From positions 186,001 to 250,000 of the forward strand of contig NZ_AUDH01000003.1 of the NCBI RefSeq assembly GCF_000425365.1: a stretch of 64,000 nucleotides of DNA, given 5' to 3'. The stretch is from Rubritepida flocculans DSM 14296 (GTDB taxonomy: Bacteria > Pseudomonadota > Alphaproteobacteria > Acetobacterales > Acetobacteraceae). Of the stretch, positions 7,764-11,205 are shown piece after piece. Within the stretch, counting starts at the first letter, position 1, and each line of letters starts with the position of its first letter. The notes under the pieces were generated by a model. That model saw nothing but the letters and a program-made list of their open reading frames with translations, did no database searches and was not told the DNA's origin. The translations under genes and the position numbers were made by a program.

Positions 7764-8530
7764 GCGCCGCCGCGGCCGATGCGCTGCTGCTGGAGCTGGA
7801 GGGCTTCCAGGGCCCGCTCGACGTGCTGCTGGAACTCGCCCGCGCGCAGAAGGTGGACATCCGGCAGATCAGCATCCTCGCGCTGGTGGACCAGTATCTC
7901 GCGGTGATCGAGGGCGCGCGGCGCGTGCGCATCGAGCTGGCGGCCGACTGGCTGGTGATGGCCGCCTGGCTCGCCTGGCTGAAGTCCCGCCTGCTGGTGC
8001 CGGAGGAGGAGCGCGGGCCGGAGGAGGAGGACCCCCTGCTGGCCGCGCAGCGCCTGACGGAGCGGCTGGCCGAGCTCGACCGCATGCGCGCGGCGGCCGA
8101 ATGGCTCGCGCGCCGCGCCCAGCTCGGGCGCGAGACCTTCGCCCGCGGCGCCCCCGAATCCCTGACGCTGGAGGACCGTTCGGGCCTGGTGGCCGATCTG
8201 GCGGGGCTGCTGCGCGCCTATGCCGAGGCGCGGCGGCGGGCGGTGGCGCACCGCCCCTTCACGCCCAAGCCGCGCAAGCTGTGGTCGGTCGCCGAGGCGC
8301 TGGCGCGGCTGCGCGCGCTGATCGGCCAGGCGGGGCCGGGCTGGTCCACCCTCTCGGCCTTCCTGCCCGAGGATCTGCGCAGCCCGCTCGACCGGCGCGC
8401 GGCGCTGGCCAGCACCCTCGTCGCCGCGCTGGAGGCGGCGCGGGGAGGGGGCATCGAACTCAAGCAGGAGGCGCCCTTCGCGCCGATCTTCGTCAAGCCG
8501 GGAATGGGGGAGCTGCCGCATGTCGCCTGA
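7760..8530 (+). CDS. scpA: Segregation and condensation protein A
   Basis: This 256-aa kleisin subunit of the SMC-ScpAB complex organises chromosomes. The N-terminal Smc-binding block is visible (FQGPLDVLLELARAQKVDI, then ISILALVDQYL), as is the WLVMAAWLAWLKSRLLVP helix typical of ScpA. The GTG start overlaps the protease stop (GTGA). The longer open frame further upstream only covers the protease gene in another frame. The end overlaps scpB by 11 bases. Confidence 0.94.
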   Translation: MSAAAADALLLELEGFQGPLDVLLELARAQKVDIRQISILALVDQYLAVIEGARRVRIELAADWLVMAAWLAWLKSRLLVPEEERGPEEEDPLLAAQRLTERLAELDRMRAAAEWLARRAQLGRETFARGAPESLTLEDRSGLVADLAGLLRAYAEARRRAVAHRPFTPKPRKLWSVAEALARLRALIGQAGPGWSTLSAFLPEDLRSPLDRRAALASTLVAALEAARGGGIELKQEAPFAPIFVKPGMGELPHVA

Positions 8531-9122
8531 GGAGAACCCGGATTTCGCCCGCGCCCTGCGCATCGCCGAGGCGCTGATCTTCGCCTCCGACCGGCCGGTG
8601 CCGGCCGCGCGGGTGCAAATGGCCTTGCCCGCAGGGGTGGACGCCCAGGCAGTGCTGACCGCGCTCGCCGCCCAGAGCGCGGGGCGCGCGGTGGAGCTGG
8701 TGGAGGTGGCGGGCGGTTTCGCCTTCCGCACCGCGCTCGACCTCGCCCCCGCCATCACCCGCGTGGTCGAGGCGCCGCGCCGGCTGCCCAAGGCGGCGAT
8801 GGAGGCGCTCTCCATCATCGCCTACCACCAGCCCGTCACCCGCGCGGAGATCGAGGAAATCCGCGGCGCGAGCCTCGCCCAGACCACGCTCGAGGCGCTG
8901 CTGGAGGCCGGGCTCATCGCCCCCCGCGGCCGGCGCGAATCCCCGGGCCGGCCCACGCTCTGGGGCACCACGGCGAAGTTCCTCGACCAGTTCGGCCTGA
9001 AATCCCTGAACGACCTGCCGCGCAAGGAGGAACTGGTCTCGAGCGACCTCGCCGCCACCCCCCTCGGCGGAGAGCGCGACGGCGCCCCGCCCGTGATCCC
9101 GGACGGCGCCCGGGCGGCCTGA
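8520..9122 (+). CDS. scpB: Segregation and condensation protein B
   Basis: This 200-aa partner of ScpA is made of two winged-helix domains. Family features are the opening ALRIAEALIFASDRPV, the ALSIIAYHQPVTRAEIEEIRG block, and RRESPGRPTLWGTT. It would dimerise and bind the ScpA kleisin. Its start is inside the scpA end. In related bacteria tatA usually follows scpB; here a repeat element and an ABC ATPase gene follow instead. Confidence 0.94.
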   Translation: MSPEENPDFARALRIAEALIFASDRPVPAARVQMALPAGVDAQAVLTALAAQSAGRAVELVEVAGGFAFRTALDLAPAITRVVEAPRRLPKAAMEALSIIAYHQPVTRAEIEEIRGASLAQTTLEALLEAGLIAPRGRRESPGRPTLWGTTAKFLDQFGLKSLNDLPRKEELVSSDLAATPLGGERDGAPPVIPDGARAA

Positions 9123-9161
9123 GACCCCCATGGCCCGAGCACGCGCGGCGCGGGGTGGGCG

Positions 9162-9376
9162 CCGGAGAGGGGCGCCGCCCCTCTCCGGACCTCTCCCCGC
9201 CAAAGGCCATCGGCCTTTGGAAACCGCCTCGTTTGTGGGGAGGCGGAGGGAGGGGCATGGTGCGCCCGTGACGATGCGTGTTCCCCTGACGCCCCTCCCT
9301 CCGCCTCCCCACAGATGGGTTCCAAGGGCCCACTGGCCCTTGGCGGGTGGGGTGCGGGGAGGGCGGCGCCCTCCCC
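9162..9376. repeat. Inverted pair of ~90-bp hairpin-rich repeat units (REP/BIME-like composite)
   Basis: The 315-bp gap 9123-9437 is filled by this element. In order it holds: an 11-bp hairpin (9162-9172/9178-9188); a 9-bp hairpin (9200-9208/9212-9220); a 23-bp arm (9234-9256); a 34-base spacer; the exact reverse complement of that arm (9291-9313); a 9-bp hairpin (9322-9330/9335-9343); and a 9-bp hairpin (9356-9364/9368-9376). The right half read backwards is a diverged copy of the left half, so this is one unit present twice, head to head. Short open frames through it look like translated repeat, not protein. It separates scpB from the ABC ATPase and could fold into a large cruciform or RNA structure. 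Confidence 0.85.
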
Positions 9377-9437
9377 GTCGCCATTCCGGCGCTGCGCCCG
9401 CGCCACGGGCGTTCCCTGCCTGCCCCGGGCGCCGGCC

Positions 9438-10499
9438 GTGAGTCTGGTGCTGCGCGACATCCGTCACCGCTATGGCGCGCGCGAGGTGCTGCGCGGCGTC
9501 TCGCTCGAGGTGGCGGCGGGCGAGATCGTCTGTCTGCTCGGCCCCTCGGGGGATGGGAAGACCACCTTGCTGCGCCTCGTGGCCGGGCTCGAGCGGCTGC
9601 AGCAGGGCGAGATTTCGCTGGGCGGGCGCGTGCTGGCGGGGCCGGGCGTGGAGGTGCCGCCCGAGGGGCGCAATGTGGGGTTCGTCTTCCAGGACTATGC
9701 GCTGTTCCCGCACCTGACGGTGGAGGACAATGTGGCCTTCGGCCTGCGCCGCGTGCCGCGCGGGGACCGCGCCTGGCGCGTGGCCGAGGCGCTGGCGCGG
9801 GTGGGGCTCGAGGCCTACGCGAACGCCTGGCCGCACCAGCTCTCGGGCGGGCAGCAGCAGCGCGTGGCGCTCGCGCGCGCGCTCGCCCCGCGCCCCGACG
9901 TGCTGCTGCTCGACGAGGCCTTCGCCAGCCTCGATGCGCGGCTGCGCGAACAGGTGCGCGACGACACGCTGCATGTGCTCCAGCAGGCCGGGATCCCCGC
10001 CCTCATCGTCACCCATGACGCGGAGGAGGCGATGTTCATGGCCGACCGCATCGCGCTGATGCGCGAGGGGCGGATCGTGCAGCTCGGCACGCCGGAGGAG
10101 CTCTACCTCAACCCCGCCACCCCCTTCGTCGCCACCTTCCTCGGCGAGGTGAACCGGCTGCCCGCGCGCATCCGCGGCGGCGAGGCCAGGACGGTGATCG
10201 GCGCCGCCCCGGGCCGGGGCCTGCCCGAGGGCAGCGCGGCCGAGCTGCTGCTGCGCCCCGAGGGGCTGCGCGTGCTGCCCGAGGGCGCGCCCGGCGCCAC
10301 CCCGGCCGAGGTGGAGGCCTGCCGGCTGCTCGGCGCCACCACCCTCGTGCACATGGCGGTGGAGGACGGGGAGGGGGGCGTGCTGCACCTGCACGCCCGG
10401 CTGCCGCCCGGCGCGGCGCTGGTGCGCGGGCAGCGCGTGGGGGTCGTGCTCGATCCGGCGCGCGCCTTCGCCTTCCCCGCCGGCGAGGCCGAGGGGTGA
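9438..10499 (+). CDS. ABC transporter ATPase, Fe3+/spermidine/putrescine type, orphan
   Basis: This 353-aa ABC ATPase has Walker A GPSGDGKTT at about residues 35-43 (Asp where Cys or Ser is usual), signature LSGGQQQR, Walker B LLLDEAFASLD and H-loop IVTHDAEEAM. A C-terminal extension (about 235-353) starts at TFLGEVNRL and fits a TOBE domain. This architecture is that of FbpC/PotA importers, but no permease or binding-protein gene adjoins it, so the substrate is open. The GTG start follows the repeat element; in-frame codons upstream read into the repeat and were excluded. The gene sits between scpB and tatB, where tatA is normally found. Confidence 0.85.
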   Translation: MSLVLRDIRHRYGAREVLRGVSLEVAAGEIVCLLGPSGDGKTTLLRLVAGLERLQQGEISLGGRVLAGPGVEVPPEGRNVGFVFQDYALFPHLTVEDNVAFGLRRVPRGDRAWRVAEALARVGLEAYANAWPHQLSGGQQQRVALARALAPRPDVLLLDEAFASLDARLREQVRDDTLHVLQQAGIPALIVTHDAEEAMFMADRIALMREGRIVQLGTPEELYLNPATPFVATFLGEVNRLPARIRGGEARTVIGAAPGRGLPEGSAAELLLRPEGLRVLPEGAPGATPAEVEACRLLGATTLVHMAVEDGEGGVLHLHARLPPGAALVRGQRVGVVLDPARAFAFPAGEAEG

Positions 10500-10596: not shown

Positions 10597-11205
10597 ATGC
10601 TCGATCTCGCCTGGTCAGAGATCCTGCTGATCATCGTGGTGGCGCTGGTGGTGATCGGGCCCAAGGATCTGCCCGGCGCCATCCGCGGCATCGCGGACAT
10701 GATCAAGAAGGGCAAGCAGCAGCTGGCGCAGTTCCAGCAGCAGGCGGACGAGCTCGTCCGCGAGGCGAAGCTCGACGAGGTGCGCAACCAGATCGCCGAG
10801 GTGAAGGGCGCGATCAACGAAATCCGCAGCTTCGACCTCAAGGGCGAAATCCAGAGGACGGTGGACTCGGACGGCGCGCTGACCAAGGCCTTCGCCGATG
10901 ATCCGCTGAAGGATCTGGGCGGCGCGGCGAGCCCCCCCGCCTGGACGCCCCCGCCTACCGCCCGCGATGTCCCCGACGCGCCGGCGATGATCCCGCCGCA
11001 GACCATGGCGCCCTACAAGGCGCCGGAGCCGCCGCCGCCCCCGCCGCCCGTGCCCGCGCCCGCCTTCGTGCCGCCCTCCACCCCCGCGCCGGCCGGCCTC
11101 GCGGCGGAGCCCGCGCCGCCCCCGCCGGCCAGCCCCGTCGCGGCCGGGCAGGCGCCGCCGCCCGCCGCCCCCGCGCCCGCCCCCGCGCCGGCCAAGACCG
11201 CCTGA
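10597..11205 (+). CDS. tatB: Sec-independent translocase subunit TatB
   Basis: This 202-aa twin-arginine translocation component, with TatC, binds the signal peptides of folded exported proteins. It has one N-terminal membrane helix (about residues 6-21), the hinge GPKDLP, and an amphipathic helix (about 25-60). The C-terminal half (about 115-202) is Pro/Ala-rich and low-complexity, longer than in E. coli TatB. tatC follows after 9 bp. No tatA-like frame lies between scpB and this gene. At least one Tat client is encoded here, the PhoX-like protein at 60938. Confidence 0.93.
   Translation: MLDLAWSEILLIIVVALVVIGPKDLPGAIRGIADMIKKGKQQLAQFQQQADELVREAKLDEVRNQIAEVKGAINEIRSFDLKGEIQRTVDSDGALTKAFADDPLKDLGGAASPPAWTPPPTARDVPDAPAMIPPQTMAPYKAPEPPPPPPPVPAPAFVPPSTPAPAGLAAEPAPPPPASPVAAGQAPPPAAPAPAPAPAKTA

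Follow-up and report, generated by a model that had tools for sequence, protein, structure and literature searches.

A dispersed inverted-pair DNA repeat of Acetobacteraceae with hairpins that covary with a putative third strand

In the 64,000-nt stretch of Rubritepida flocculans DNA analysed here (the window), a segment of about 215 bp with inverted symmetry lies between scpB (8520–9122, plus strand; PF04079), whose stop codon is approximately 40 nt from the outer hairpin of the segment, and an ABC transporter ATP-binding gene (9438–10499, plus strand; PF00005). What is this segment, what is its structure selected for, and why does it stand at this place? A sequence-only reading had described it as a head-to-head pair of units of about 90 bp that replaces tatA in an operon and resembles a REP/BIME pair mobilised by a RAYT-type enzyme.

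Anatomy and distribution of the repeat

The window copy (9162–9377) consisted of two inverted half-units round a central hairpin, with two hairpins in each half; the halves are inverted copies of one unit, as the head-to-head description implied. From either end inwards, the order was the outer hairpin (H1), a short strand, the inner hairpin (H2), a short strand or linker, and one central arm. In the left half, H1 (9162–9188, plus strand) was a perfect 12-bp hairpin and a member of the family, with a purine strand (9164–9173, plus strand; GGAGAGGGGC), a loop (9174–9176) and a pyrimidine strand (9177–9186). Three nucleotides behind the hairpin core lay CCTCTCCCC (9190–9198, plus strand), which the family statistics mark as the putative third strand of H1. 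It was followed by H2 (9200–9220, plus strand; CCAAAGGCCATCGGCCTTTGG), a perfect 9-bp hairpin, and by AAACC (9221–9225, plus strand), a putative third strand of H2 according to a family rule that is weaker than that for H1. The central stem had a left arm (9234–9256, plus strand), a 34-nt loop (9257–9290, plus strand) and a right arm (9291–9313, plus strand), the two arms being 23 nt long and 100% complementary. The right half, read on the minus strand, contained a putative third strand of its inner hairpin by the same family rule (AACCC, 9317–9321), the perfect inner hairpin itself (H3, 9322–9343), of a type unlike H2 as the heterotype rule described below predicts, the putative third strand of the outer hairpin (CCCCACCC, 9345–9352; triplex code at offset 3) and the perfect outer hairpin (H4, 9355–9377), of a type unlike H1, with the purine strand GGGGAGGGC on either strand of its core (9356–9376). 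The predicted fold of 9140–9400 had a free energy of −210.8 kcal/mol, compared with −142.6 ± 5.1 kcal/mol for shuffled sequences (z = −13.4).

The exact inverted arms and the four side hairpins had all been recognised in the sequence-only reading, which held in addition that the rest of the units had diverged and that the arms looked selected for pairing. The halves do differ, but the hairpins of the half-units are likewise strongly constrained, since they covary with the neighbouring strand and are never of the same type in both halves.

A single copy without relatives had been named as the observation that would speak against a repeat. The search of the genome and its relatives proposed at the same time gave the opposite picture, with 8 places in the window genome (DNA search; 16 matches, most places matching on both strands) and many elsewhere. 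With a covariance model of the half-unit, 17 half-units were found in the window genome at E ≤ 0.001, 16 of them forming 8 pairs and one being a weak single. Within the genus, the model matched in 18 of 21 genomes and gave no match in the other three (G011, G016 and G013), some of the 21 being incomplete (57–100%) and no more than 150 candidates per genome being scored, which makes the half-unit counts per genome lower bounds. Most genomes had few copies; G031 was the richest, with at least 77 half-unit matches. In an order-wide sample, 94 of 299 genomes, from 26 of 65 genera, matched at E ≤ 1e-5. A pattern search of named genomes retrieved 99 stretches, and among the 80 of these that were listed, most came from Roseomonas, Neoroseomonas, Falsiroseomonas, Roseococcus or unclassified Acetobacteraceae. 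One exact pattern match (L243) was on a contig labelled Desulfovibrio sp. UBA6079, a metagenome-assembled genome, and may reflect transfer, mis-binning or chance. The window copy had no plasmid or phage relatives at E 1e-5, and we found no published account of the family in the literature, our coverage of subscription journals being incomplete.

For the analyses below, 101 distinct elements were collected from 15 genus genomes, including some orthologous copies in close species; partner halves were accepted by a laxer pairing rule, because the strict nhmmer cut-off missed many. Likeness between copies of one genome reached 96%; in the 34 within-genome pairs listed, it ended near the edges of H1, mostly at most 20 nt and never more than 37 nt beyond them. 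The repeat comprises inverted pairs of a palindromic unit, lies between genes and occurs in several copies. The window feature is most likely a copy of an Acetobacteraceae DNA repeat, about 215 bp long, that is dispersed and non-autonomous.

Central arms were present in 94 of the 101 elements and were perfect in 67, with one mismatch in 23 and two or three in 4; the 7 elements without detected arms were left out of the arm counts. The arms comprised 69 distinct sequences of at least 17 nt, and the commonest loop length, 34 nt, was shared by 47 of the 94 elements. The mismatches were asymmetric (A-C 15, G-T 3), although orthologous copies may inflate these numbers. Five copies in G031 (L074, L076, L080, L085 and L088) had a central loop of only about 10 nt and perhaps represent a short form that spread recently. 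Of 202 half-unit stretches, 86 contained the tetranucleotide CGTC. It was absent from the foot of H1 and of H2 and spanned the arm/loop junction on one side in 56 of 94 elements. Many central loops also looked near-palindromic, and the loop may descend from a CGTC-tagged repeat, as the recurrence of CGTC at the arm/loop junction would allow.

The strand behind the hairpins

In the family, the strand behind H1 mirrored the pyrimidine strand of that hairpin and was complementary, in parallel orientation, to its purine strand. Such pairs in different copies, with the purine strand given first, were GGAGAGGGG with CCTCTCCCC, GGGGAGAG with CCCCTCTC, GGGAGGGG with CCCTCCCC, GGAGGGAGG with CCTCCCTCC and GAGGGGG with CTCCCCC. 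The purine-motif triplex code, as set out by Holder et al. (2015; PMC4666352), has G on G-C and either A or T on A-T, with the third strand antiparallel, and this is the pattern seen here. The pyrimidine motif does not fit, because T on A-T would be disallowed. In the window, the code fitted CCTCTCCCC against H1 at 9 of 9 positions and CCCCACCC against H4 at 8 of 8, both at offset 3; one of the latter was T on A-T, as the purine motif reads it.

The code was tested on 114 unique half-units with 25 stem sequences, at an offset fixed at 3 nt without fitting and with 39 of the 202 halves excluded for want of a perfect purine H1. On the purine-rich strand, 697 of 729 G-C positions had G opposite them, and 139 of 152 A-T positions had A (101) or T (38). 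At offsets of 1, 2, 4 and 5, the A-T fit was 22, 20, 18 and 19 of 152, respectively. With one half-unit per stem sequence, the counts were 150/155 (G on G-C) and 32/36 (A or T on A-T). The match at offset 3 was complete in 90 of the 114 unique half-units and had at most one miss in 104. When strands were shuffled within genomes (163 halves), the observed 139 full matches compared with a mean of 28.3 and a maximum of 45 in 2000 trials.

The relation was also seen outside this set. In the named genomes, 37 of 67 half-units had been chosen by the search pattern itself and were dropped; the 28 unique half-units that were not so selected gave 157/175 (G-C) and 28/34 (A-T). None of these 28 came from a locus listed as Roseococcus or from G031, 5 of the 30 halves behind them came from loci without a listed record name, and 1 of the 30 lay in an element that recurs in a Roseococcus locus. 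Elements from other genera of the family (28 elements, after 12 of 40 regions had been dropped for lack of a partner half and 12 of 56 halves for lack of a perfect purine H1) gave 235/253 (G-C) and 44/50 (A-T) in 38 unique half-units. The named and other-genera sets share some genomes and are not fully independent of each other.

Two other pairings of the strand were tried and rejected. Whereas the third-strand reading (own H1, parallel, one fixed offset) gave 113 full matches in 132 halves, Watson–Crick pairing with the H1 of the other half gave 16/132 and antiparallel pairing with the own H1 gave 24/132, each at the best of 8 offsets.

H2 and its linker showed a weaker relation of the same kind. 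All 5 positions fitted in 40 of 81 unique half-units, compared with a mean of 11.1 and a maximum of 23 in shuffles; by position, the code was followed at 111 of 130 A-T pairs (A or T) and at 207 of 264 G-C pairs (G), the offset being picked by the first base. The 19 of 202 half-units without a perfect H2 were excluded. In form, the half-units have three consecutive tracts in one strand with a stem of 6–15 nt, as triplex repeats do, and in the classes of PMC4666352, as described there, they belong to class I on the outward strand and to class III on the inward strand.

How could such a match arise? Template copying gives direct or inverted copies, never mirror images. A mutational origin of the match would therefore be unlikely, and the match is most simply read as selection for a three-stranded form. 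In G010, however, two near-identical inverted copies about 1 kb apart (L135 and L190) differed in one outer hairpin and its third strand as a unit, and outer modules can thus be exchanged as a unit. Because modules are swapped whole, independent joint changes are fewer than stem sequences, and because of shared descent and the orthologous copies of three close species, the 25 stem sequences do not stand for 25 independent events. Module exchange spreads concordant triplets without new selection, which counts against the reading as selection for triplexes.

The two halves of an element were never equipped with the same hairpin. The same H1 occurred in both halves in 0 of 66 elements and the same H2 in 0 of 83, where random pairing within genomes gave means of 8.9 and 11.2, respectively; for H1, the counts elsewhere were 0/27 (named genomes) and 0/17 (other genera). 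H2 types formed recurring couples, and the heterotypic H2 is partly explained by the inheritance of these couples. Halves of different type would be unable to pair with each other and would tend to fold locally. Avoidance of a long perfect palindrome is a possible alternative reason.

Gene ends, gain of copies and competing explanations

Elements stood close behind genes. The distance from the flanking stop codon to the hairpin model was 2–58 nt (median 14, n = 141), and in 94 of the 99 elements with enough flank a gene ended towards the element. By gene orientation, crudely derived from codon-position GC and with orthologous copies included (2 elements with short flanks were dropped), these 99 comprised 47 convergent, 43 tandem, 1 divergent and 8 unclear cases. 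Control gene pairs in the named family loci, from mixed genera including Roseococcus, were 50 convergent, 169 tandem and 38 divergent (n = 257), and the elements in those loci were 7 convergent, 14 tandem and 1 divergent. Divergent gaps were poor in elements in both sets; a strong convergent bias was confined to the genus set. Stop codons beside elements were TAG in 54 of 143 cases, compared with 20 of 92 in genes of the Roseococcus scpB and mfd loci, a difference that orthologous copies inflate. The tight position behind stop codons, the third-strand relation and the rule that the two halves differ had all escaped the sequence-only reading.

At the window site, scpB was matched in 18 of 21 genus genomes. 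In 10 of the 18, the ABC gene came next after scpB with no element between them; the gap contained an element in G000 (the window genome) and G018, and the remaining 6 differed or had no visible gap. The empty site in 10 of 18 genomes indicates that the lineage of the window genome acquired an element between these two genes. The suggestion that it replaces tatA was not upheld, the ABC gene filling the gap in relatives without the element. In the window, a tatB-like gene (10597–11205) follows the ABC gene, and then tatC and serS, while a tatA-like gene above the TatA_B_E cut-off lies on another contig, away from tatBC (G000:C17:24543-24674). The elements at the scpB site in G018 (L098) and in the window genome (L001), which are close species, belonged to different subfamilies, and another site shared by the two genomes was nearly unchanged, which suggests recurrent arrival or conversion at the scpB site.

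A gain could also be followed in G010, where a second copy, about 1 kb from its near-twin and inverted, occupied 293 bp in place of a 40-bp gap in G004 and G003. The join was at the TAG stop of the neighbouring gene, and the 40-bp gap was replaced from the stop codon on. No target-site duplication was seen at this junction, the one clean comparison of a filled and an empty site. The mfd gene was matched in 20 of 21 genomes; its far-side gene was not conserved, and no element was found in the 12 other loci with a readable gene end. Different elements, one of them partial, lay at the 3′ end of mfd in two lineages (L321 in G001 and L080 in G031).

The position at gene ends suits the main rival to a DNA that spreads, namely a host-serving transcription insulator whose fold would halt or slow RNA polymerase arriving from either side and which is kept for that reason. 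We regard this as unlikely, though worth weighing. The 94 of 99 elements with a gene ending towards them, the median distance of 14 nt and the 47 convergent cases against 1 divergent in the genus set, where controls had 50 and 38 of 257, are what an insulator would produce, and one copy, conserved almost without change at the same site in two species, would also suit a host function. On the other hand, the convergent bias was weak in the named loci of mixed genera, a position behind stop codons could be mere tolerance, and at the two sites examined most relatives with a readable gap had no element. TTTT occurred within the first 70 nt behind H1 in just 8 of 202 halves; with T-tracts so rare, the repeat is not a standard intrinsic terminator. 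The triplex repeat of E. coli had no terminator activity in earlier work, as reported by Holder et al. (PMC4666352).

A structured RNA, either a 3′ UTR stabiliser or a regulatory RNA with stems conserved in the transcript, is improbable. The very stable predicted fold, the compensatory stems and the position behind stop codons would be expected of it, but so symmetric an arrangement of halves means that a transcript of either strand would serve equally. Moreover, a third strand with A or T on A-T follows the purine motif, and triplexes of that motif cannot form in RNA according to Holder et al. (PMC4666352); this points to single-stranded DNA, not a transcript, as the molecule under selection. 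A search of 8900–9700 against Rfam returned no family at the gathering score; almost all sub-threshold matches were to microRNA families, which is usual for long GC-rich hairpins.

More doubtful still is a G-quadruplex element, in which the G runs rather than the third-strand match would be kept. Four runs of at least 3 G were present in the purine strand of 53 of 114 unique half-units; however, 21 of the 25 stem sequences included half-units without such runs, 42 of the 61 half-units without a quadruplex motif still fitted the triplex code fully, and a quadruplex needs neither mirror symmetry nor the matching of A to A or T.

Mobilisation of a REP/BIME or REPIN by a RAYT transposase is very improbable: the pairs are palindromic, inverted, intergenic and variable in copy number, and REP dimers, too, are mostly heterodimers as described in the REP sections of PMC3733652, but Y1_Tnp (PF01797) was absent at E ≤ 0.001 from all 18 element-bearing genus genomes, G031 included, the GTAG tag occurred in only 27 of 202 half-unit stretches and nearly always in the flank outside H1, and the unit is about 90 nt long with two hairpins, against a palindrome of 20–40 bp in REPs. 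The likeness to REP/BIME therefore held for the dispersed intergenic family of inverted pairs, its differences in copy number and its gained sites, and failed for the RAYT gene that the sequence-only reading had proposed to look for. Among the 21 genus genomes, some of them incomplete, Y1_Tnp was found in G016 only (L167–L169), which itself had no repeat match; the same search was positive in 5 of 14 control genomes. A RAYT partner is ruled out for the genus at the sensitivity of the E ≤ 0.001 search.

Known repeats, the proposed folded form and its meaning

The closest known repeat is the PIT/BoxC/TMECO repeat of E. coli, compared here by its description in PMC4666352. Both are G/C-rich intergenic repeats with a hairpin and a third strand in the same DNA strand, both are present in several copies per genome that vary between strains, and in both the inverted pairs are always heterotypic (all five E. 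coli pairs combine type A with type B; PMC4666352). TMECO is a 37-nt class II repeat of highly uniform sequence, with the third strand 3′ of a Y-loop-R hairpin, whereas the 215-bp repeat has two motifs per half-unit, paired round a central hairpin, and at least 25 stem sequences with matching third strands. The 215-bp repeat also stands tight behind stop codons, unlike TMECO, for which the same passages give no trend to a specific distance (PMC4666352). Membership in the TMECO/BoxC subfamily was rejected, the order here being purine strand, pyrimidine strand and third strand, which is not that of class II.

REP dimers and BIMEs are likewise small intergenic palindromes, often in inverted heterodimer pairs and variable in copy number, and the excess of heterodimers among them "has no obvious explanation" (PMC3733652). 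CGTC repeats, as treated in the same source, resemble the present family in that they too seem to lack a dedicated transposase; Acetobacteraceae are listed there among the families without CGTC repeats (PMC3733652). Unlike REP and CGTC repeats, the 215-bp repeat lacks a tag at the base of H1 and of H2, has no RAYT in the element-bearing genus genomes, is a larger composite unit, and has the third-strand rule and variable central arms.

MITEs and small foldback elements are non-autonomous and dispersed and have an inverted-repeat architecture. The 215-bp repeat shares these traits, its halves being inverted; it differs in showing no target-site duplication at the one junction examined, and the transposase search that can be set beside this comparison covered Y1_Tnp only.

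On the present sequence comparisons, we consider it reasonably probable that the repeat, a dispersed and non-autonomous DNA element, functions in folded single-stranded form, each strand making a long hairpin alongside two purine-motif triplex hairpins. In this fold, the strand that follows H1, and to a looser degree the one that follows H2, would lie back on its hairpin as a class I intrastrand triplex on the outward-reading strand. The active form would be single-stranded DNA, as exposed at the fork during replication, within transcription bubbles or in an intermediate of transfer, and this folded strand is most likely the form that is recognised and copied during spread. Because the hairpins are heterotypic, each would fold by itself instead of pairing with the one in the other half, and the element would settle directly behind stop codons, where it does least harm. 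Spread, rather than a benefit to the host, would be the reason for its persistence.

Such a mechanism supposes triplex formation in living cells, and the double-stranded state of genomic DNA counts against the triplex reading. For the E. coli triplex repeat, no triplex was seen in vivo by DMS footprint and no function is assigned by Holder et al. (PMC4666352).

The broader proposition is that selection in living bacteria maintains DNA triple helices, with up to four intrastrand triplexes per copy, each having a stem sequence of its own and a third strand that co-evolves with it, and with halves orthogonal to each other, which would let the single strand take one defined shape recognised by some factor. 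Judged from the covariation, we hold this to be evenly poised. Intrastrand triplex repeats as such are already known; the 215-bp repeat differs from them in class, composite architecture and position and, most of all, in that its evolution bears witness to the third strand.

Work on triplex DNA in vitro goes back a long way. The many natural variants of the family amount to an evolutionary test, in which the hairpin changes and the third strand follows the purine-motif rule, including its freedom of A or T. The family thereby supplies, in environmental bacteria, ready-made compensatory variants for tests of how small repeats with no known transposase move, and of triplex formation, replication arrest and transcription.
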